Shown here: piece by piece, positions 1 through 21,590 of the stretch
Layout of the letters: the number at the start of each line of letters is the position of its first letter
How positions within the stretch are numbered: the first letter of the stretch is position 1
DNA from: Malaciobacter pacificus
GTDB taxonomy: Bacteria; Campylobacterota; Campylobacteria; Campylobacterales; Arcobacteraceae
NCBI RefSeq assembly: GCF_004214795.1
Contig: NZ_CP035928.1
Location: 2,108,001 to 2,172,000, forward strand
Direction: 5' to 3'
Length of the DNA: 64,000 nt
Notes under the pieces: generated by a model
Seen by the model: the letters and a program-made list of their open reading frames with translations, nothing else
Databases searched by the model: none
Told to the model about the DNA's origin: nothing
Translations under genes and position numbers: made by a program

Positions 1-1236
1 TACAATGAAGTTTTTGAAAAAATACCTGATAGATTTTGGATTCCAGCTCATGTTCAATTTGAATATTTAAAAAATAGAGAAAAAATTATTAAAAAACCTA
101 TTGCAGAAAAATTTATTCCGCTTGAAGATGAAGTTAAGAGAACAGCAACTAAAGTTAATGATATATTGAAGCATGTAACTTCTATTGTAGATAAAACAAA
201 AAAAGATGATAAGCATCCTCATGTAGAACAAACAAAAATTTCTATTTTTGTTGATGAAATAAATAAATTTATTCAAAAATCTAAAGATTTTGAAAAAGAA
301 TTTCTTATTCAGGTTGAATCTGCAAAAAATGATGTTTTAAGTGTGGAAGATAATGATGATATTTTTGAAGCTATCAAAAAATATTTTAAAATAGGACCTG
401 AATTCACCTTTAATCAAATTATGGAAATTACAACAGAAGGAAAACATCGTTATGAATTTAAAATCCCTCCAGGATACGGTGATTATTATAAAAAAGAAAA
501 AAAAGGAATTCAGATTTTTGGTGATTTGATAATTTGGAAGCAAATAATTGAATACAGCAAAGAAAAAAAATTACCAATTATTTTTATAACAAATGATATT
601 TCTAAAGATGATGATTGGTGCTATTTAGATAAAAATAAAAAAATAATTAGTCCAAGAGAAGAGTTAATTAAAGAATTATATGATTCTTCAAAAGTTGAAT
701 TTTGGATTTATAGTCAACCTAATTTTTTATATAAAGCTAATAAGTACCTACAATCAACTATTGAAAAAACAAGTATTCAAAATGCTTTATTAATGCTTTC
801 TCAAAGAAATAAGAGAGAAAGTTTTTTACGTTATAAATGTTCACAGTGTAATAGCATAAATACAGTATATAAAAATGATTTGGATTTAGATTTTGAATGT
901 GTTGCTAGTGATGATCGTAATATGGGTTCTGAAAATCAATATGAAGCAAGGGAATATTTTGAATGTGATTGTGGAAATAATATAGAAGCTATATTTACAG
1001 TATGGGAATATCCAGTAGGTATTCATAACTATGATTCTATAGAATTGTATGGAGGAGATTTAATTGATTCTTTCCATTTTACGATAAACTTTTTTAATGA
1101 AGAAGAACGAGAAGAAATTGAATGTGATATTTGTGGTTCAGAATGTGATAGAGATAATATGATATATATGGAAGATGTTGGATATATATGTCCAAATCAT
1201 GAAATTAATCCACAAAATAAACATCATAATGATTGA
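1..1236 (+). CDS. PIN-like nuclease domain protein, 5' end outside window
   Basis: The reading frame is open from base 1, so the N-terminus lies upstream; the first internal start-like codon (TTG at 166) is not a likely real start. The visible part is 411 residues. Residues encoded around 1-60 (RFWIPAHVQFEYLKNR) and around 510-610 (GDLIIWKQI, then FITNDISKDDDW) match the layout of the PIN-like family known as PIN_8/DUF4935, whose acidic residues in GD..IW and TND.K.D would bind metal for RNA cleavage. A coiled region lies between. The C-terminal third is Cys-rich (CSQC, CDCG, CDICGSEC), which suggests zinc-binding modules for substrate or partner recognition. Nuclease activity and a defence role are inferences from family and island context. 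The family call is fairly secure. Confidence 0.7.
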   Translation, partial: YNEVFEKIPDRFWIPAHVQFEYLKNREKIIKKPIAEKFIPLEDEVKRTATKVNDILKHVTSIVDKTKKDDKHPHVEQTKISIFVDEINKFIQKSKDFEKEFLIQVESAKNDVLSVEDNDDIFEAIKKYFKIGPEFTFNQIMEITTEGKHRYEFKIPPGYGDYYKKEKKGIQIFGDLIIWKQIIEYSKEKKLPIIFITNDISKDDDWCYLDKNKKIISPREELIKELYDSSKVEFWIYSQPNFLYKANKYLQSTIEKTSIQNALLMLSQRNKRESFLRYKCSQCNSINTVYKNDLDLDFECVASDDRNMGSENQYEAREYFECDCGNNIEAIFTVWEYPVGIHNYDSIELYGGDLIDSFHFTINFFNEEEREEIECDICGSECDRDNMIYMEDVGYICPNHEINPQNKHHND

Positions 1237-3262: not shown

Positions 3263-3416
3263 CTTAAAAAGTGATTTTTGTTGTTCAAAAAGTCCTTAGG
3301 ATTTGAGAGAATCACTAAATTCTACTTCTTGAACACTTTTTGGAACAAATTATATCTCTAAACAAAGGTTATAAAGCCAATAAGTTAGATTTTCTAATTT
3401 TGTTCCAAAATCTAGA
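3263..3416. other. noncoding IS256 tail with repeated GTTC(C)AAAA inverted motifs
   Basis: There is no gene in this stretch. TTTTGGAACAAA at 3338-3349 is the perfect reverse complement of TTTGTTCCAAAA at 3399-3410, and a related GTTCAAAAAGT lies near 3282. The spacer between the main arms is about 49 nt. The region lies between the IS256 transposase stop and the IS1182 insertion point and ends in TCTAGA. It could be the structured end region of the IS256 element, but I cannot show its role. Confidence 0.45.
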
Positions 3417-5118
3417 GAGACTGTGAAAGAACTAACTCCTATGTAAGTAAAAAGAATCGAGTTAAAGAATATTTTTCAATATTTAAATGTATAAACTCAT
3501 TTTTCGATGATAAAAAGCTTTAAAAAAGACTAGAACTGCAATGTACTCTGCTATTTCTTGTTTTATATCTTCAATATTGCCACTTTTACTGGCTTTTATT
3601 AGCTTTTTAAACAGTGTAATACCAATTAGATTTAATAATCTTCTAAAATTATAGGTAAGCATAATAAGAGCATTCTCTCCAGCAACTTTTATTTTACCCC
3701 GTACTAGAAAATGACTCCAGCCAAGATTTTGTTTGATTGTCCCAAATGGGTGTTCAACTAATTCTGCACGCTGTTGAATCATCACTTTAGCTTCTTGTGT
3801 ATTCATCTTTGCACGGTGTGCAGTGACAACTTCTTCATGTTCCCAACGCCAAAGACGTTTTGCAGGAGTTTTTTCAGGAATACATTGTGAACGTATTGGA
3901 CAAACTTTACATACAGAACCAGTACCAAAATACATAAAGCGTTTTATACCATTTTGCTCAAAAGTAGTTTTTTTCCGCTTCATCACTTTTTCATTTGGAC
4001 AAATATAACAGTCATTGATTTCATCATAAGTGAATGAATCTCTTGGAAACTTCCCTTTATCTTTTTGCTTCTTTTGCTTGTCTGGTTCAGGAATATAAAC
4101 ATCAATCCCTTCATCACTACATCGCTTGATCTCTTTGGAATTATAATAACCTGCATCAGCTGCTACTTTCATTTGTTCATTATCAATAACTTCTTTAGCT
4201 TGTGTTGCCATTGGATAAAGTTGATCGTGGTCTACCCCTTTACTAGAAATATCAGTAGCAACTATGAACTTATATTTTCCATCAACAGCAATTTGAGAAT
4301 TATAAGCTACCAAGTGATGTGCTGGTTTAGTCATTAAGGTCGCATCAGGATCACTTTTACAATACTGTTTTACTTGATGTTCTTTGAGAATATTCAGATC
4401 ATCATTTAGTTTGGCTTTACGCTTTTTAAGTCGGTCAATATGTTGCTTACAAACAAGAGGTTTAGTTTCTTTATTCTCACAACTATCACTGTATTCTAGG
4501 GAATTTAGATACTCTGTTATTTTCTCATCAACTGATTCCATATCTTTAAGAGTCATTTTTTCAGAGATAAGTTGATTCTTTGAGGCATTAGCTCTTAAAA
4601 AAGCTCCATCAATAGCAACAACTTCTCCATCAATTAAATCAACAGAACGACATAATATTACAAAGTCACGAAATAGTTGTTTTAACACTGAAGGATTATC
4701 TTTACGAAAGTTAGCAATAGTTTTATATCCAGGAGTTAATCCTTCACATAGCCACATCATTTCAACATTACGTTTAATCTCACGCTCAAGCTTTCTAGAA
4801 CTTCTAATACTATTTAGATATCCATAGAGATAAATTTTTAAAAGTAGTGCTGGATGATATGCTGGTTGACCTTCCAAACCACCATTATTAGTAAATACTC
4901 CTAAAGAAGCTAAATCAATACTATCAACATAACTATCAATAGCTCTTACTGGATTATTTTCATCAACATATTCATCTAAACTAGGAGGAAAAAGAAGTTG
5001 TTGATTACGGTCTAAACCTTCTTTGTAGTTCGGCATTGTAAAGCCTTTTTATTAATCTATGATATCTATATTTTAGCTAATTTTCTGTTATCAACGGCTT
5101 TAGTTCTTTCACAGTCTC
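3417..5118 (-). mobile_element. IS1182-family insertion sequence, complete
   Basis: Perfect 19-bp inverted repeats (GAGACTGTGAAAGAACTAA at 3417-3435; reverse complement at 5100-5118) frame a single transposase gene. TAGA occurs directly outside both ends (3413-3416 and 5119-5122) as a 4-bp target duplication. The element is inserted in the noncoding part between the IS256 transposase and the 3' end of the histidine kinase gene, so it looks younger than the IS256-bounded unit. Confidence 0.85.
3483..5036 (-). CDS. IS1182-family transposase
   Basis: A 517-aa DDE transposase. The N-terminal part (YKEGLDRNQQLLFPPSLDEY, then HPALLLKIYLYGYLNSIRSSRKLE) is the typical DUF772 head of IS1182/IS5-like enzymes. 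The catalytic core includes AIDGAFLRANASKN and AADAGYYNSKE. A Cys-rich segment (CYICPNEKVM, CKVCPIRSQC) follows, and the C-terminal part contains AELVEHPFGTIKQNLGW, which holds the likely catalytic Glu. The frame is intact, and it is the only gene of its element. Confidence 0.95.
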   Translation of the reverse strand: MPNYKEGLDRNQQLLFPPSLDEYVDENNPVRAIDSYVDSIDLASLGVFTNNGGLEGQPAYHPALLLKIYLYGYLNSIRSSRKLEREIKRNVEMMWLCEGLTPGYKTIANFRKDNPSVLKQLFRDFVILCRSVDLIDGEVVAIDGAFLRANASKNQLISEKMTLKDMESVDEKITEYLNSLEYSDSCENKETKPLVCKQHIDRLKKRKAKLNDDLNILKEHQVKQYCKSDPDATLMTKPAHHLVAYNSQIAVDGKYKFIVATDISSKGVDHDQLYPMATQAKEVIDNEQMKVAADAGYYNSKEIKRCSDEGIDVYIPEPDKQKKQKDKGKFPRDSFTYDEINDCYICPNEKVMKRKKTTFEQNGIKRFMYFGTGSVCKVCPIRSQCIPEKTPAKRLWRWEHEEVVTAHRAKMNTQEAKVMIQQRAELVEHPFGTIKQNLGWSHFLVRGKIKVAGENALIMLTYNFRRLLNLIGITLFKKLIKASKSGNIEDIKQEIAEYIAVLVFFKAFYHRKMSLYI

Positions 5119-5158
5119 TAGAGGTTGTGACACATTTAACATGAACTATAAAAAATAT

Positions 5159-6715
5159 TTACTTTAATGGTAAGATTATTTTAAATTCAGCTCCAGAATA
5201 CTCTTTTCCATTGTACTTATAATTTATATTATGAGCTTCAATAGTTCCATTCATCCCATCTACTATTAAGTTGTAAGTCATATGAAGTCCAAGACCTGTC
5301 CCTTGAGATTGATGTTTTGTTGTAAAGTATGGTTCAAAAACCTTAGGAAGTATATCATCACGTATACCTCCTGCATTATCCTTAAATATAATAGTAACTT
5401 TATCTTCTTTTAGTTCTGTAGATATAAAAATAAGCTTATCATCTTCTTTATTTTTAAAAGCATCTTTTGAGTTATTGAATATATTGATGAAACATTGAAC
5501 CAATTCATTTGGATAGCCATTTATAATTATATTCTCATCTATATCTTTTATAATTTCTATATCATTACTCTTTATACTACCCTCTACAAGATGTAAAAAG
5601 CTTTCAATAGTATCAGCCAATTTAAACTCAACTACTTTTCGGTCACCCTTTATAAAGTTTCTAAAGTCATCTATAGTTTTTGATAGATACTGTGCGTTAT
5701 CATTTATTGAATCACAGGTTCTTATAAATATTTCATCTGTAAGTGTATTATATTCTTTTTGAAGTTTTAACCCTGTAGATGCAGTTGATATAACTGATAG
5801 TGGTTGTCTCCATTGATGTGCAATATTCCCTATCATCTCACCCATTGCTACAAGCTTTGATTGTTCTGCAATTAATCTTTCATTCTCTTTTTGTTCAGTT
5901 ATATCTGTTATATATCCTAAATAGTGTGTAGTATTTCCATTATCATCTCTTAATACCACAGTATAATCTAATACCCATTTTGACTTACCATCTTTTGCTA
6001 TAAGCCTATATGGTTTGTGTTGGAAAAATTTGCTATCTGATTTACTTCCCTCTTCAACTTCACTTATTACAGTTTGTAAATCTTGCTTATCAATACAATC
6101 AGCATAATGAACTTCACCATTTAAAAACTCATCTTGTGTATATCCTAAGAGTCTTGATACACTTTGTGATACATAATTAATACTCCAATTATCATCATTA
6201 TTCCATTTAAAAAGTACTGAATCTCCTTGGTCAAATAATGAAAGTAAGATAGTCTGTTCATTTGTTTTGTATTGAAGCTTTTCTTTTTCAATTTTAATTT
6301 GAATATTTGATTTGATTTGTCTATAGATGAGATATATTATCACTAGTGATATAAAGAAAGATAATATTCTAATAGTCATAGTACTAGTTAGTGATGATTT
6401 TATAATATCTGATTTTGAGTGGGAGACAATATAAGCTACTGTTTTATTTGATAAGTTTTTGATTGGTAAAAAAGAGATGATTTCAATATTTTTATTATTT
6501 TTAATATAAAAATTAAACTTCTCACCTTTTTGAGTATTAGTATGTATTATTTCTCTCATTGGTTCAAGTTTCTTTTTATTTTCTACTATACATAGTTGTT
6601 TTGAATGAAATGGACCTAAGTTAAGCATAAAATCTTCATCTTCAGCAGATTGTTCATAGTTTATTACTAAATTTTTTGTTTCCCAAGCTTTTATATCAAA
6701 TATATGTTTATTTAC
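5159..6715 (-). pseudogene. sensor histidine kinase, C-terminal part (PAS-HisKA-HATPase), cut off from its N-terminus by an IS
   Basis: This frame encodes the rest of a Cache domain, a transmembrane helix (around LSFFISLVIIYLIY), a PAS domain with a PAC motif (HYLGYITDITEQKENE), the phosphoacceptor block GEMIGNIAHQWRQPLSV and an ATPase domain with N box (INIFNNSKDA), G1 (DNAGGI) and G2 (GTGLGLHMTY). The frame runs open past its first ATG (6628) to the 8-bp IS4 target duplication at 6708-6715. Joining this to the part at 8279-8901 with one duplication removed gives a continuous protein of about 723 aa. No response regulator gene is adjacent. As it stands, the sensor domain is separated and the gene is broken. 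Confidence 0.85.
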
Positions 6716-6728
6716 TTAACTTTCGCAC
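6708..6728. repeat. target duplication and inverted repeat at the IS4 left end
   Basis: TTATTTAC (6708-6715) is repeated at 8279-8286. Next to it inside the element is TTAACTTTCGCAC (6716-6728), whose reverse complement lies at 8265-8277. The transposase stop codon and last three codons lie in this repeat. Confidence 0.85.
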
Positions 6729-8080
6729 CTAAAACCAAGCAATTTTCCAGTCACATCTCTTAATAGATCAATGATAGCTGTAAAATCCTCATTTCTATTG
6801 ACAACTTCTTCAATTTTTGCAATCTCATCTAAAATAGCTAAAAATGCTTGCATAGCTATTGCTAGAGTATGAAGTTCACATTCTAAATCTTTAAACAATC
6901 CACCAATTGTTTTAGGTTCATTGCTGATACGATTTATATAGCTAACAACATTGTATGTAAAAAAAGATAGTGTAATTCTGGCTATCAAAGCTTCATAGAT
7001 TCGATTCTCTTCTTTTCCGAATCCAAAGTGTTCACGAAGTTCTTTATACCCTTGTTCTATATCCCATCGTCTTTTATAAATATCTATAATCTCTTCATCA
7101 CTAAGTATAAGATTGGTTGATACGATTGGTATTAAATTCTCTTTTGTTTTTATAAAAACAATTTTTAATTTACCAGCTTTTTTATGTTCAACTATGGTTG
7201 AAAAATACTCAAACTTTATCTTTTTGCCATATTGACCCATCTTGATAGATTTAAGCTTTTTAAATTTGTTATAGATGCCATCAAGGGTCTTTTTCTCTCC
7301 TGTAAAATTCCATATCCTGTCATTGTTTACCATTCTTGAAATGACTTGCAATCCAAGTTCATTCATAGTTTCTATAAATACAGGTTTAGAATACCAGCTA
7401 TCTACAAGCAGATAATCTGCATATATACCACTAGCTACTGCTCTTTTAATCATCTCTATAGCAATTTGTGATTTCCCTTTTAAGCTTTCCAATCTTCGCT
7501 TATGTGCATTGGTTCGATGATCAATAATATTTGTAAACTCTTCTATCTTTACCCTTGCATAACTGTTCATAGCAATTGCAAAGTCCAACATAAAATTTGA
7601 ATAACCATCACTATAGTTTAGTGATACAACATTTACACCTCTGATTTTTCTCTTTGCTTTATTGCTCCAAAGGTTGTCACAACTTCCCTCTATATTTTTA
7701 CCAACTTTATCTTCAACAGTATCATCAAGTATAAGAACTCTTACTAGCTTTGAATCTTGCACTTTATGAAGTAGTGATAAGATCTTTAAAGAACTAAGAG
7801 ATAATAGTTTTCTCCAATTATAAGAAGTATTGGAAAGTAATCGATAATATACATCTTTTTTGAAACTATCATTACTTTGATCCATAAAGGTTGATATTTT
7901 TTTATTCATAACCAGCATATATACAAAATGTAATACAACCATATGAACAGCAACTCCCTCTTTTTTAGAAAAATTGCTCTTGGTTAAAATAGTTTTCATA
8001 TTTAACAAACGTAATGTTTCATAGATTGGATTTTTTAACTTATCGTTTATAATACCGATGATCTTGGATTCTATCTGCAT
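6716..8080 (-). CDS. IS4-superfamily transposase
   Basis: A 454-aa DDE transposase of the DDE_Tnp_1 type. The catalytic motifs are LILDDTVEDK (D119/D120), YLLVDSWYSK (D227) and the IS4 Y-R-E signature YKRRWDIEQGYKELR (Y335, R338, E342). The C-terminus (GFRCES) is encoded in the terminal inverted repeat. The frame is intact and the length is normal for IS4-like enzymes. I cannot assign the subgroup from sequence alone. Confidence 0.92.
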   Translation of the reverse strand: MQIESKIIGIINDKLKNPIYETLRLLNMKTILTKSNFSKKEGVAVHMVVLHFVYMLVMNKKISTFMDQSNDSFKKDVYYRLLSNTSYNWRKLLSLSSLKILSLLHKVQDSKLVRVLILDDTVEDKVGKNIEGSCDNLWSNKAKRKIRGVNVVSLNYSDGYSNFMLDFAIAMNSYARVKIEEFTNIIDHRTNAHKRRLESLKGKSQIAIEMIKRAVASGIYADYLLVDSWYSKPVFIETMNELGLQVISRMVNNDRIWNFTGEKKTLDGIYNKFKKLKSIKMGQYGKKIKFEYFSTIVEHKKAGKLKIVFIKTKENLIPIVSTNLILSDEEIIDIYKRRWDIEQGYKELREHFGFGKEENRIYEALIARITLSFFTYNVVSYINRISNEPKTIGGLFKDLECELHTLAIAMQAFLAILDEIAKIEEVVNRNEDFTAIIDLLRDVTGKLLGFRCES

Positions 8081-8278
8081 TCTTACCCTTTAATATAATA
8101 GATATTATAGCTAAAAGTGCCTATTTAAGGGCTTTATTGAGAGTTCAAAATAGAAAAATATCATAGAAAAACAACTAAATTATTTTTATGTCAACAAGGA
8201 TAAGATTATTAACTAAAGGAGTAATGTTTTAGGGAGATTTAGCTACAATTTTAATCAATTTAACGTGCGAAAGTTAAG
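6716..8278 (-). mobile_element. IS4-type insertion sequence interrupting the histidine kinase
   Basis: A 1.56-kb element with perfect 13-bp terminal repeats (TTAACTTTCGCAC) and an 8-bp target duplication (TTATTTAC). It contains one transposase gene. Excising the element with one duplication restores the kinase frame (FLV-N-KHIFD), so no other damage to the kinase is visible and the insertion looks recent. One extra G (8278) between the right repeat and the duplication leaves the exact outer base uncertain. Confidence 0.88.
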
Positions 8279-8901
8279 TTATTTACTAAAAAATGAGAAT
8301 GCATATTACTTACATTATTTAAGTAAATTTGATATTTTGCACTAGAAAAAGAGATTTCCATTGCACCTATATGGATATTATTTTTATCAAATAAAGGAAA
8401 AGTATTTCTAAATCCATGAGCAGTTCTTCCTTGAGTAAAACCTCTAATAGGTTCTTTTGTTTCATTTGCTATTTTATAGTCTTCTCTTATTTCAGTTAAA
8501 TCATCACCAAACTTTGATGGTTTATGTACTCTTAAAAAAGATATATTATCTCTATTTACAAATTGTAGTTGCAATACACCTTGTTTTTTAGCGATTCTGT
8601 ACTGTTCTTGTAGTTGGGTATTTAGTTTTTCTCTATTGATGTTATTTTGCTCTTCAGTTGCTGTATAGGACTCACTTAAAAATTTAATAGCATCTGTATT
8701 TCTCATTATTGATTGAGAAATAGCATAAGCAATGTTTTTTTGTGTTGTATTTAAAATTTCAAAATGGATTTGTAGTTTGTTTAAATCTTCTTTTAGAACT
8801 AAATCTATTCTTTGTTTTGAGTTTATCTCTGTAATGAAATATACTATGGTATTTATAGATATAAAAAGTAATATTAATAATATAATATTTTTTATTTTCA
8901 A
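8260..8901 (-). pseudogene. sensor histidine kinase, N-terminal Cache part, truncated by the IS4 insertion
   Basis: The frame encodes an N-terminal membrane helix (about residues 4-22) and most of a periplasmic Cache-type sensor domain (VLQLQFVNRDNISFLRVHKP, then GFTQGRTAHGFRNTFPLF). The last six residues (NLTFAR) come from the IS4 terminal repeat and are not original. The start is TTG at 8901 with GAGGT about 9 nt upstream, which supports this unusual start. A truncated membrane-anchored sensor might still be made but would have no kinase domain. Confidence 0.82.
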
Positions 8902-9100: not shown

Positions 9101-9589
9101 TTACCTTTGTTCTATAAATTCAGAATCTTTTAATTGTTTAAATAAAGGCATTGTATATCGAGGGAAACCACTTTTATTAACAACATCCATAATATAAACT
9201 CTTAAATAAGATATAATGTGAGTAAAAGCAGAATCAGAGGCAAATGTACTTACAGTTTCTTTTATACAATCATCCAATAAATTTAAATCCAATACTTTAT
9301 AAACAGCTTGAACTTTAGCAAAAACATTCAAAAAATCTTCAGTTTCTTTTTTTATAGTAAAATTACATCCCATTGTACAAATAAGTAAAAAATCTTTCTT
9401 ATTTTCAGGATTATGTATTACATCAACATCCATTTCAGTTAAAGAAATATCAGACTCTAAGTGCTTTTCTATTCGTCCTGAAATAGATATTACTTTACTA
9501 CTACTCTCTAAAAGAACTACATCTTCTAAATTAATTTTTGATATAAACTTATCAAACTCTTCTTTACATTCAAATTTTTTTTCATTCAT
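9101..9589 (-). CDS. SecB-like chaperone, putative third gene of a toxin-antitoxin-chaperone module
   Basis: A 162-aa acidic protein, close to SecB in length (about 155 aa). The C-terminal part (residues 121-150, with ISYLRVYIMDVVNKSGFPRY followed by TMPLF) has the order of the conserved SecB helix and 'gFP-P' segment, and the N-terminal two thirds has alternating hydrophobic residues fitting a beta-sheet. It starts directly after the stop of the preceding gene (TAAATG junction). Position, size and this similarity suggest a dedicated SecB-type chaperone as in HigBAC or CmdTAC systems. The housekeeping SecB role is unlikely in an island. The fold call is moderate and rests mainly on the C-terminal motif. 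Confidence 0.5.
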   Translation of the reverse strand: MNEKKFECKEEFDKFISKINLEDVVLLESSSKVISISGRIEKHLESDISLTEMDVDVIHNPENKKDFLLICTMGCNFTIKKETEDFLNVFAKVQAVYKVLDLNLLDDCIKETVSTFASDSAFTHIISYLRVYIMDVVNKSGFPRYTMPLFKQLKDSEFIEQR

Positions 9590-10156
9590 TTAAGCTACTC
9601 TTTTAAAATCAAAATTACTACTATATAATGTTACACTATTAAAACTATTATAATTAATTGTTTTATTGACATTTATAGTACCTGACATTTCTCTTTTTTT
9701 ACTAATTATTGTTTGATTGTATTCTTGATTAATTACAGTCTTGAAAATATCATATAATTCTGCCTCTTGTTTTCTATATAAATTATAAAAGTTATAGCCT
9801 AAAGTAGCAAATTCATTTGGTAAAATAAGTTCTTCTTTTTTATATAACTCATCAAATCTTAAATCTTCTGAAAATATTAAAAGATGATAAGATTCATAAA
9901 ATCTTTTATATAATAAAATTTCTGAATTTTTAATAACGTTATATAATTTTTCTTCATTGCTAATATACTTAAGAAACATATCTTCATCTATATTATGTAT
10001 TTTTATCCAATACTCAAAGGTATCTTCTTCTCCACAACAAAGATAAATCGTTTTATTTTCTAAAGAAATTTCTTCTTTATTCCCTTCAAAATAAACTGTT
10101 AAATAAGTATTTATTTTTTTATGATCAATTTCTAAATATGTTTTTTCTATTTTCAT
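9590..10156 (-). CDS. hypothetical protein, putative antitoxin of the SecB-associated module
   Basis: A 188-aa protein without a domain I recognise; no helix-turn-helix is evident. I place the start at ATG 10156, where ATGA overlaps the stop of the preceding gene by 4 nt, instead of the TTG 15 nt further upstream. The C-terminal 35 residues (ending NSFNSVTLYSSNFDFKRVA) are polar with aromatic residues and look flexible, which would suit a tail that depends on a chaperone, as described for TAC antitoxins. Translational coupling to both neighbours argues for one complex. The antitoxin role is inferred from gene order only. Confidence 0.5.
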   Translation of the reverse strand: MKIEKTYLEIDHKKINTYLTVYFEGNKEEISLENKTIYLCCGEEDTFEYWIKIHNIDEDMFLKYISNEEKLYNVIKNSEILLYKRFYESYHLLIFSEDLRFDELYKKEELILPNEFATLGYNFYNLYRKQEAELYDIFKTVINQEYNQTIISKKREMSGTINVNKTINYNSFNSVTLYSSNFDFKRVA

Positions 10157-10548
10157 TCTTTTAATTCCCAAACAATGTCTTTTGCTTCTTCTACGTTTTT
10201 ATAAACATAAACATTTACATGAGTAGGATATTTTCCTTTTCCTATATCTTTGATAGTAGCATATCTTTCCAAATTTTCAGCTTTGTAAATATGATTACCT
10301 AAAGCACCATATCTATCAAGCATATTTTTTGCTTCTTCAAATGTAGCAAAACAAGATAACCCCTGATACTCACATTCTTTACCTTTAAACTTTACAGCTC
10401 TATGATGTGGCTGAGTCCAGTATTGTGGTATAAAATCTTCATTATTTAATTCTTTATTTTTTGTTATTCTATAATAATTATCATATGAAATACTTACTTT
10501 TTTTTCATCTGGACAACTTCCAGTCAGATCATATTTATACTCTATCAA
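10153..10548 (-). CDS. hypothetical protein, putative toxin of the SecB-associated module
   Basis: A 131-aa protein and the first gene of the three-gene minus-strand operon. I cannot assign a family with confidence. An early YYRI and a late VEEAKDI segment could correspond to the Arg and Glu positions of small ADP-ribosyltransferase folds, but this is weak. HHRAVKFKGKECEYQGLSCF, followed by ATFEEA, is the most distinctive block. Size and first position match toxins of HigBAC (HigB) and CmdTAC (CmdT). The toxin role is inference. The gene starts about 60 nt from the integrase 3' end. Confidence 0.45.
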   Translation of the reverse strand: MIEYKYDLTGSCPDEKKVSISYDNYYRITKNKELNNEDFIPQYWTQPHHRAVKFKGKECEYQGLSCFATFEEAKNMLDRYGALGNHIYKAENLERYATIKDIGKGKYPTHVNVYVYKNVEEAKDIVWELKE

Positions 10549-10605: not shown

Positions 10606-11832
10606 TTAAATTTCAATTAACTTATCCAACCAATCAGCGTACCATTGAATCAATTCTTTCTTTTCTTCAAAATATTTATATTTTGATTCTCTATTATAAG
10701 CAGCTCTTACTTTATTTTTTTCCTTATGAGCTAAACAGGCTTCAATAATATCTGAATGAAAACCATGTTCCTTATATAATTCATTTGCAATTGTTGAGAA
10801 CATACTTCTAAAACCATGAAATGAATGCACATCTTGATAACCTAATCTTTTTAATGTATCAGATAATACTGCTCTTGAAACACCTTGATTTATTCTTATA
10901 TTAGAAGGAAATACATACTTACTTCTAGGTCTTGAATATGGTTCTATTTCTCTAATTATTTTGACTGCCTGTTTAGGTAAAGGGAAAACAAAATCTACAT
11001 TCATTTTCATTTTATCTTTTGGAATATCCCAAATTGCATTATCTAAATCTAATTCATCCCATTCCATTAACCTAATGTTTTCACTTCTTACAAATACATA
11101 AGGTATTATTTTGAAAATAAATACTGTACTGATATCACTTCTAAATCTATCCCCTAAAGTATTGATATCATTTAACAACTGTTTAATATCCTTTATTTCT
11201 GTAATAGCTGCTAAATGTGAATCTTTTTTATTTGGTACTAAAACAGCTTTTTTATCTATATCTGCAATTATATTATGTTCAATATATTCTTTTGTTACCG
11301 CATACATATATACTTTATTTATTAATGATAATAGTCTATGTGCAGTTTCAATAGTTCCCCTATTTTGCACTTTTTCTAAAATATTTATGATATTAACTCG
11401 CTTAATATCTTTAATAGCAATGGTACCTAACCAATCAGTAATATTTTTAAACATTCTTTTATTTTGAGTAACAGTTGCTACACTTGCACTTTTTTTTCTA
11501 AGTTCTATCCATTCATCAATAACATTTCCTAAAGTCAATGATTCTGAAGCTTTTTTAATTCTTTTTTGCGAGATAGGATTAATATTATTAGCCAATAATT
11601 GTCTAGCTTCTTCTCTCTTTTCTCTAGCTTCTTTTAAAGTAACTTCAGGATAAACTCCAAAACTGGTAGATTTTCTTTTAGAACCATAAACAAAATCGAA
11701 TCTAAAATATTTTGTTCCATTTGCTCTTACAATTAAACATAATCCTTGACCATCGCTTAATTTATAATCTTTATCTTTAATTTCAGCTTTTTTGATTACT
11801 ATGTCAGATAAAGGTTTAACAAGTTTCGCCAT
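10606..11832 (-). CDS. P4-type tyrosine integrase of the genomic island
   Basis: A 408-aa integrase. The N-terminal DUF4102-type arm-binding domain (LSDGQGLCLIVRANGTKYFR, then FGVYPEVTLKEAREKREEAR) is followed by a core-binding domain and the catalytic domain. The catalytic residues are visible as Arg in RSENIRLMEW, HGFR, His in ACLAHKEK and Tyr in AAYNRESKY. It is intact and lies at the island edge next to a core gene (YciI-like, then rpoC). The other end of the island is not in the window. Confidence 0.93.
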   Translation of the reverse strand: MAKLVKPLSDIVIKKAEIKDKDYKLSDGQGLCLIVRANGTKYFRFDFVYGSKRKSTSFGVYPEVTLKEAREKREEARQLLANNINPISQKRIKKASESLTLGNVIDEWIELRKKSASVATVTQNKRMFKNITDWLGTIAIKDIKRVNIINILEKVQNRGTIETAHRLLSLINKVYMYAVTKEYIEHNIIADIDKKAVLVPNKKDSHLAAITEIKDIKQLLNDINTLGDRFRSDISTVFIFKIIPYVFVRSENIRLMEWDELDLDNAIWDIPKDKMKMNVDFVFPLPKQAVKIIREIEPYSRPRSKYVFPSNIRINQGVSRAVLSDTLKRLGYQDVHSFHGFRSMFSTIANELYKEHGFHSDIIEACLAHKEKNKVRAAYNRESKYKYFEEKKELIQWYADWLDKLIEI

Positions 11833-11864
11833 TTTACGGTAATGCCTTTTTTATATTTTAAAGT

Positions 11865-11885
11865 TACCGCAAATAATACCGCAAA
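11865..11885. repeat. two direct repeats TACCGCAAA upstream of the integrase
   Basis: TACCGCAAA occurs at 11865-11873 and 11877-11885, a 12-bp period, about 35 nt upstream of the integrase start. A related TTACCGT lies nearer the start on the minus strand. Paired sites like this beside an integrase gene may be its arm-binding sites or operator. The role is not proven. Confidence 0.5.
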
Positions 11886-11979
11886 AAAACTTGATTTGAC
11901 CTGATTTTATTTGATTTTATATGATTAGATTTGAGATTAAGAAGTTTAACAAAGCCCTACAAAAAGGGCTTATTTGATT
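11886..11979. other. island-core junction region with a hairpin
   Basis: An AT-rich stretch with several TGATTTTA-like repeats, followed by a hairpin AGCCC-TACAAAAA-GGGCT (around 11954-11971). The hairpin lies just downstream of the YciI-like gene on the minus strand and probably ends its transcript. The island attachment site is likely in this stretch, but the partner copy lies outside the window, so no att core can be defined. Confidence 0.4.
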
Positions 11980-12273
11980 TTATTTACTTGGATTTGGCAT
12001 AACCTTAACAGGAACGACTTGGATTTCATCCATATTCCAAACACCACCTGTCACGTATGGTTCATTTTCCAACCACTCATCAAATTCATTGTCATCTTCA
12101 AAGTTAGTTAACACTGAAGATCCAACCATTTTTTCTTCTTCAATTAAAGCACAAGCAGAAATAATTTTACCTTCGGCCATTAATTTTTGAGTTCCTTCAA
12201 CATGTGCTGGTCTATTTTCCATTCTTTTATCTAGTGCATTATCATAATCATAAGCTATTACTAAATATTGCAT
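11980..12273 (-). CDS. YciI family protein
   Basis: A 97-aa protein with the YciI/YCII fold pattern: an N-terminal strand (MQYLVIAYDYDNAL), a central HVEGTQKLMAEGKIISACAL, and the C-terminal Trp/acidic region (DEWLENEPYVTGGVWNMDEI). Family members form small ferredoxin-like dimers, and their biochemical role is mostly unknown. This is a core gene at the island edge. It is followed by a terminator-like hairpin. Confidence 0.85.
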   Translation of the reverse strand: MQYLVIAYDYDNALDKRMENRPAHVEGTQKLMAEGKIISACALIEEEKMVGSSVLTNFEDDNEFDEWLENEPYVTGGVWNMDEIQVVPVKVMPNPSK

Positions 12274-12333
12274 TATTATCCTTTTTGTTTTTATTATAAT
12301 ATTTTATCATAATATCCAAATGATAAAATTAGA

Positions 12334-12720
12334 TTAAAAAAGATTAACTGCAAAAAAGAAAGATATAGGATATATTAAAACATTCATATATCTAAATATT
12401 GGGGTCATTTTAATATTCATAGGCATAACATTTATAAGCTCTTCACCATTAGATAGTTTTTTCATCATTGAAAGTTTAAAACTGATATCTAAAAATTTAA
12501 TTATTAAAATAGAACTCATCCAAAAACCAAAGTTATTTAGATAAAAACATAAAAAAATTGTGTATATAAAACTTGCATGAAATGTAAAATATAAAAGAAG
12601 ATTCTTTTGATATAAATAAAAATTATTTAAAATTAGGCTATGTAAAGAGTCAGCTTTTTGCCAATTTGATTCAAAAAGCTCAAGTGAGATAAAAATTATA
12701 AGTAATAAAATTAAATCCAT
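12334..12720 (-). CDS. small integral membrane protein, unknown function
   Basis: A 128-aa protein with about four hydrophobic segments (residues 2-14, 40-60, 66-80, 108-127). No family recognised. It starts 31 nt after the rpoC stop with a 9-bp hairpin in between, so it may be read through from the rpoBC operon or from a weak start of its own. No clear ribosome binding site precedes the ATG. Confidence 0.6.
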   Translation of the reverse strand: MDLILLLIIFISLELFESNWQKADSLHSLILNNFYLYQKNLLLYFTFHASFIYTIFLCFYLNNFGFWMSSILIIKFLDISFKLSMMKKLSNGEELINVMPMNIKMTPIFRYMNVLIYPISFFFAVNLF

Positions 12721-12728
12721 AAAAGTTT

Positions 12729-12750
12729 CAATAAGGCAAAAGCCTTATTG
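12729..12750 (-). terminator. hairpin between rpoC and the small membrane gene
   Basis: CAATAAGGC / GCCTTATTG forms a 9-bp perfect stem with a 4-nt loop, 2 nt after the rpoC stop. The minus-strand sequence that follows (AAACTTTT) is only a weak U-tract, so termination may be partial. Confidence 0.5.
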
Positions 12751-12751
12751 A

Positions 12752-21590
<8,839 letters not shown>

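Follow-up and report, generated by a model that had tools for sequence, protein, structure and literature searches.

The stretch of DNA analysed here, a 64,000-nt segment of the Malaciobacter pacificus chromosome (the window), carries three minus-strand genes directly beside a tyrosine integrase gene (Table 1). We refer to these genes as T, A and C, for candidate toxin, antitoxin and chaperone. T and A share a 4-nt overlap (ATGA), and the TAA stop codon of A is followed at once by the ATG of C (TAAATG); the sequence-only reading had described the genes, their sizes, both junctions and the adjoining integrase correctly. This order and coupling give a three-gene operon with a SecB-like candidate in third place, as in known toxin-antitoxin-chaperone (TAC) systems. 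A mechanical ORF list starts A at a TTG five codons upstream of the ATG used here. A stop-free six-frame run of at least 131 codons arose in 1 of 500 Markov-1 simulations of a 1448-bp stretch, and the ORFs are therefore more than chance. In-frame codon-usage log-odds were 0.46 for T, 0.31 for A and 0.44 for C, with 0.47 for the integrase; for A, one reverse-strand frame scores equally high (0.32 vs 0.31), so that codon usage alone leaves its coding frame unsettled.

Table 1. Features of the T-A-C operon and of the island borders (window positions unless a contig is named)
Feature	Position	Strand	Description and basis
Candidate toxin T	10548..10153	-	131 aa; TTG start, AGGTGA upstream of start
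Candidate antitoxin A	10156..9590	-	188 aa counted from ATG; C-terminus ...FDFKRVA
A residues 151-188	9593..9706	-	polar tail with few acidic residues and a terminal -RVA; candidate region for chaperone addiction and degradation, from composition
Candidate SecB-like chaperone C	9589..9101	-	162 aa
C residues 122-149	9143..9226	-	part aligning with the SecB-like profile (HMMER, hhalign)
Tyrosine integrase of the island	10606..11832	-	408 aa; Pfam Arm-DNA-bind_3 7.8e-23, Phage_integrase 2.3e-17
Right att copy	11993..12023	.	31-bp perfect direct repeat; exact recurrence, same strand
Left att copy	G000:C1:2091604-2091634	same strand as right copy	copy of the 31-bp repeat; sequence match
yciI-like host gene (presumed)	11980..12273	-	97 aa, att repeat in 3' end; ORF list, putative name

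The operon sits at the right end of an integrated island of about 28.4 kb, bounded by 31-bp direct repeats, and is the first cargo beside the island integrase. The integrase suggests that the island is a mobile element, and the size follows from the two copies of the repeat, whose flanks do not align to each other. The right copy lies within a host gene that we take to be yciI-like. No second same-strand match of at least 18 bases from the flank 11833-12760 was detected in the 116 kb leftward or in the window, and no tRNA gene was found within the window to the left of the right-hand copy, in the 12 kb that follow this copy on its right, or in the 116 kb beyond the window. The island is positioned between a gene at 12752-17281, presumably rpoC, and a pair of genes some 3 kb past the left copy that we take to be rpsL and rpsG, with a few other ORFs in between; all three were named by eye. 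Elsewhere in the same island, a ThsB-like TIR protein (PADLOC E 2e-21) is encoded directly upstream of a 453-aa protein with a PIN_8 domain (Pfam 7e-29; window 1-1236, L068:15128-17236), a candidate two-gene defence system. On the 3' side of C, the same strand has no listed gene for about 200 bp; a fragment of a dCache-type sensor and then a transposase gene come next. The region 5159-8901 appears to be a sensor kinase interrupted by this DDE transposase gene (6716-8080), with the dCache part at 8260-8901 (Pfam) and a kinase-like part, recognised by eye, at 5159-6628. A second transposase gene (3483-5036) is flanked by 35-nt inverted ends (3401-3435 and 5100-5134).

To assess C, we compared it by hhalign with a profile of 11 SecB and SecB-like proteins. 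The field of 486 sequences was made up of 183 ORFs from in and around the window, a set that already includes T and A, together with 300 shuffled copies of C and the proteins C, T and A. C ranked first of the 486, scoring 28.8 against 20.7 for the next sequence, and was again first when E. coli SecB was left out of the profile (28.5 vs 19.9); the match is 28-30 residues long. In HMMER searches with a 5-member profile, C was the best of 559 entries, in which it stood twice (E 4e-4; best of 500 shuffles 0.085). Four other profiles searched against 1,186 sequences placed C first (11 and 6 members), third (10 members) and outside the top four (3 members), and with these profiles shuffled copies of C score near or above C itself. 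The sequence-only reading had seen a SecB-like C-terminal segment in the 162-aa protein; this holds as a local match at residues 122-149, confined to some 28 residues. C matched neither Pfam SecB nor the PADLOC CmdC model. Its only family match of weight is to phrog_16879, a phage family of unknown function (E 3e-6, residues 53-155), which was detected in its own genome only among 397 genomes of the phylum and in none of 14 control genomes. The low-confidence AlphaFold model of C (pLDDT 39) places strands before helices, as in SecB. SecB was absent among the best 50 Foldseek rows per library for this model; the matches returned, to capping protein and phage coat proteins, are meaningless at such confidence. 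Searches with C matched its own genome only among 298 genomes of the order, and no match was confirmed in genome contigs or viral contigs searched with a SecB-like alignment (A2); the A2 profile includes C of the window, so that its match to the window is circular. Taken together, these profile comparisons are suggestive of a SecB assignment, and we consider it quite likely that C is SecB-like.

No family in Pfam, NCBIfam, PHROGs or PADLOC matched T or A with any weight. Neither protein matched HigB, HigA, MqsR, MqsA or HicAB families in Pfam or NCBIfam, in agreement with the earlier remark on their lack of likeness to HigB and HigA. T, A and C likewise had no match to the PADLOC PD-T4-9 (CmdTAC) models, a search in which HMMER filters may hide very weak matches. 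Searches with T matched its own genome only among 298 genomes of the order, and those with A its own genome, with two doubtful matches besides, among 104 genomes of the family; the window's genome is the sole member of its genus in the searched set. We set these two weak matches (E 0.0024) aside solely on account of the length of their ORFs (540 and 549 aa). Single-protein scans for T, A and C in viral contigs and for T in genome contigs, which require an exact 8-residue word and detect close relatives only, returned nothing. Plasmids gave no match for T, A or C, other than one at E 7 to part of C. Phages gave none for T or C and three weak matches for A, in Aeromonas phage CF8_0024, a Salicola phage and a Vibrio phage. 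The first of these (tblastn E 0.09; alignment score 101, shuffle z 12) was not accepted as a relative of A for three reasons: the Salicola phage match scores much the same (95) yet is unlike it (31 between the two), the three neighbours compared resemble neither T nor C, and the Aeromonas phage match is the top hit of a very large search. T has weak PADLOC matches to REase_I (E 6e-4) and PD-T4-10_A (0.011). The REase_I family gave eight matches in 60 genomes, seven of them within ORFs 774-836 aa long and one within an ORF of 342 aa; we read these as pieces of type I restriction subunits, and therefore took the match of T as chance and rejected a REase_I identity. The AlphaFold model of T (pLDDT 34) is of no use, and an ADP-ribosyltransferase-like layout, guessed by eye, is a doubtful assignment. 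T and A are thus orphans, with no convincing relative in the collections searched. The sequence-only reading had looked to the same triplet in other islands, and here the result went against it: the exact T-A-C triplet did not recur in the order and family genomes, viral contigs or genome contigs searched, the reason being that T, A and C each lacked a convincing relative there, and not that members were found apart.

A ends -RVA and is the only one of 55 window genes with an -AA or -VA ending (0 of the 54 others); among ORFs from other loci, TAC loci left out, the background is 6 of 143. This ssrA-like ending is of the type carried by TAC antitoxins and is a candidate ClpXP-type signal; the host tmRNA tag, ANNTNYAPAYAKAA, ends YAKAA. 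The last 38 residues of A contain two acidic residues, the lowest value within the protein, yet one common to 15 of 151 overlapping windows of A. No two-component homologue of A was found that could reveal a C-terminal extension.

To place this operon among other SecB-like loci, we surveyed the phylum and viral contigs. None of the 104 genomes of the family had a Pfam SecB match above the cut-off, and sub-threshold matches in 13 genomes were not accepted as SecB; the family therefore seems to lack a house-keeping SecB. The CmdC model PDLC04072 matched at E <=0.01 in 13 of 249 genomes and revealed four real triplets; at the other nine loci, ORFs were listed for six (L034, L035, L036, L038, L040, L041), while three (L037, L039, L042) were left unopened. 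With profile A2, 397 genomes of the phylum yielded nine clear SecB-like genes besides that of the window, a count that leaves out the two weakest matches (G419 in an ORF of 805 aa and G450 in one of 400 aa). The SecB-like gene is third in a triplet at seven of these nine loci (L030, L031, L032, L033, L054, L055, L059), of which L054 is a near copy of L030; at the remaining two, L057 and L058, it has no toxin-antitoxin pair. In those two cases the SecB-like genes (L057:1492-1884, L058:1492-1896) stand beside genes that we labelled by eye as sugar-transferase-like (acetyl- and glycosyltransferase-like). Viral contigs contributed five loci with relatives, four of them with a triplet (L062, L063, L065, L066); the fifth begins too near C to tell. 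A 4-nt overlap of the first two genes recurs at 5 of the 11 related triplets (L030, L031, L032, L033, L054). Moreover, all 11 readable middle proteins end in -AA (10) or -VA (1): YAA in L030 and L054, KAA in L031 and L033, CAA in L032, QAA in L055, L062, L063, L065 and L066, and AVA in L059. Several of them are close relatives, so that the 11 amount to about five independent groups, and one of the 11 proteins shares the -VA form of the window. At these loci, a toxin followed by an antitoxin is presumed from gene order and from the nature of the third gene; labels of 'HEPN-like' and 'ImmA-like' given to some of the relatives' proteins by eye were dropped, as Pfam returned no match of that kind. 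The window's proteins stand apart from these relatives. T showed no detectable likeness to six related T proteins, nor A to eight related A proteins (best shuffle z 0.7 and 1.8). Pfam SecB matches C of all four relatives compared, with L059 below the cut-off and the other three above it, whereas C of the window has no such match. Among phage families, phrog_21664 is matched by the C proteins scanned from four relatives, and phrog_16879 by that of the window.

The arrangement itself has well-studied precedents. CmdTAC (PD-T4-9) of E. coli ECOR22 has the same order of toxin, antitoxin and SecB-like chaperone, and its antitoxin CmdA ends LAA like other TAC antitoxins (PMC11618068, as far as accessible), compared with RVA in A. 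CmdT is an mRNA ADP-ribosyltransferase, whereas T has no match to the models of that system. HigBAC and MqsRAC, from Mycobacterium, E. coli C496 and others, resemble the operon in architecture and in proposed chaperone control; they differ in their HigB, HigA, MqsR and MqsA domains, none of which was matched in the window's proteins. In the accessible part of PMC4257090, SecB outside the alpha-, beta- and gamma-proteobacteria is described as mostly lying beside toxin-antitoxin genes (44 of 70), and the portion of PMC9519451 available to us proposes TACs as a broad defence class. Among the titles listed in literature searches, including one on TAC diversity since 2023 (15 of 192), none concerned TACs of this phylum, which is no proof of absence.

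These data make it likely that T-A-C is a TAC operon, which the 28.4 kb island carries as cargo next to its integrase. The TAC-type module proposed from the sequence remains the best reading, backed by same-order triplets with SecB-like third genes, the -VA ending and the island borders; it is weakened by the poor model of C and by the exact triplet not being found elsewhere. T and A could instead form a plain two-gene toxin-antitoxin pair, or A could be the toxin, with C a non-chaperone third component such as a modulator or phage-derived protein. The SecB likeness of C, which spans no more than 28-30 residues and is borderline by HMMER, would suit this, as would PD-T4-10, whose first protein is described as the antitoxin in the part of PMC9519451 consulted. 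We nevertheless think it unlikely, as the -VA ending of A, the position of C as third gene and the relatives with the same gene order are each in line with a TAC. Orphan island cargo, that is, unrelated genes without toxin-antitoxin function (e.g. anti-restriction or establishment genes), would account for the lack of a recognised domain in any member and for phrog_16879 as the one weighty family match of C. The tight coupling, the -VA ending, the segment resembling SecB and the precedent of TACs in the same phylum speak against it and render it quite improbable.

In favour of a strongly diverged CmdTAC or HigBAC are the shared gene order and the omission of CmdA from CmdTAC calling because of its variability (PMC11618068, in the part seen). 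It is nonetheless very improbable: the operon matched no PADLOC PD-T4-9 model and no Pfam or NCBIfam HigB or HigA family. Under the preferred TAC reading, the three-gene arrangement is one already known, while T and A resemble nothing found in the collections searched, so that what is new here is probably the toxin-antitoxin pair itself.

The mechanism that we propose is built on the operon anatomy, the island borders, the -VA ending and the same-order relatives with their -AA or -VA middle proteins. T would be a toxin neutralised by A, and the tail of A would need holding by C, whose SecB fold is supported but weak. Left unheld, this tail with its ssrA-like -RVA end would presumably be taken by ClpXP, destroying A and freeing T. 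By analogy with CmdTAC and HigBAC, the trigger is likely to be a phage structural protein competing for C: CmdA is destroyed by ClpP once the T4 capsid protein takes the chaperone (PMC11618068), and the lambda major tail protein plays the same trigger role for HigBAC (PMC11980606), each as given in the available portion of the report. Freed T would stop growth and so abort the infection; loss of the island would free T likewise. T would most likely block translation, as HigB, MqsR and CmdT do according to the parts of the literature available to us. If the module works in this way, it would set a toxin-antitoxin pair without a findable relative on a chaperone-based phage sensor.

In TAC systems a chaperone serves as a phage sensor. 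Their toxins are portrayed as varied (PMC11618068), and the chaperone-addiction tail is reported to be transferable between antitoxins (PMC5105189), both in the passages accessible to us. Among the related loci, L062 and L065 are 71% alike in C, 65% in the last 90 residues of the antitoxin, 40% in its first 130 residues and 26% in the first genes (90 aligned residues). This gradient raises the possibility of toxin exchange within one TAC slot, and the relatives suggest, from their sequences only, that sensor part and toxin part are exchanged separately. Whether the operon represents a new TAC type is evenly poised: T and A would found new toxin and antitoxin families joined to a portable chaperone-plus-degron sensor, while in the phylum the SecB-like gene and the antitoxin tail, as the sensor half, would be kept and the toxin half exchanged; the island would carry one such exchange, with an undescribed toxin. 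Within the pairs formed by the viral loci, the middle proteins (L062:2293-2985, L063:2383-2985, L065:2218-2985, L066:2188-2985) also show length variation, differing in how many copies of a KKHFEIINSF-like repeat of 10 residues they carry N-terminal of the tail. A nuclease-like gene follows the SecB-like gene at four loci (L031:1884-2534, L033:769-1443, L055:601-1302, L062:3432-4094), directly next to it except in L055, where it comes one small ORF later; the L062 gene matches Pfam Endonuclease_NS (5e-37), and the others are alike by eye.
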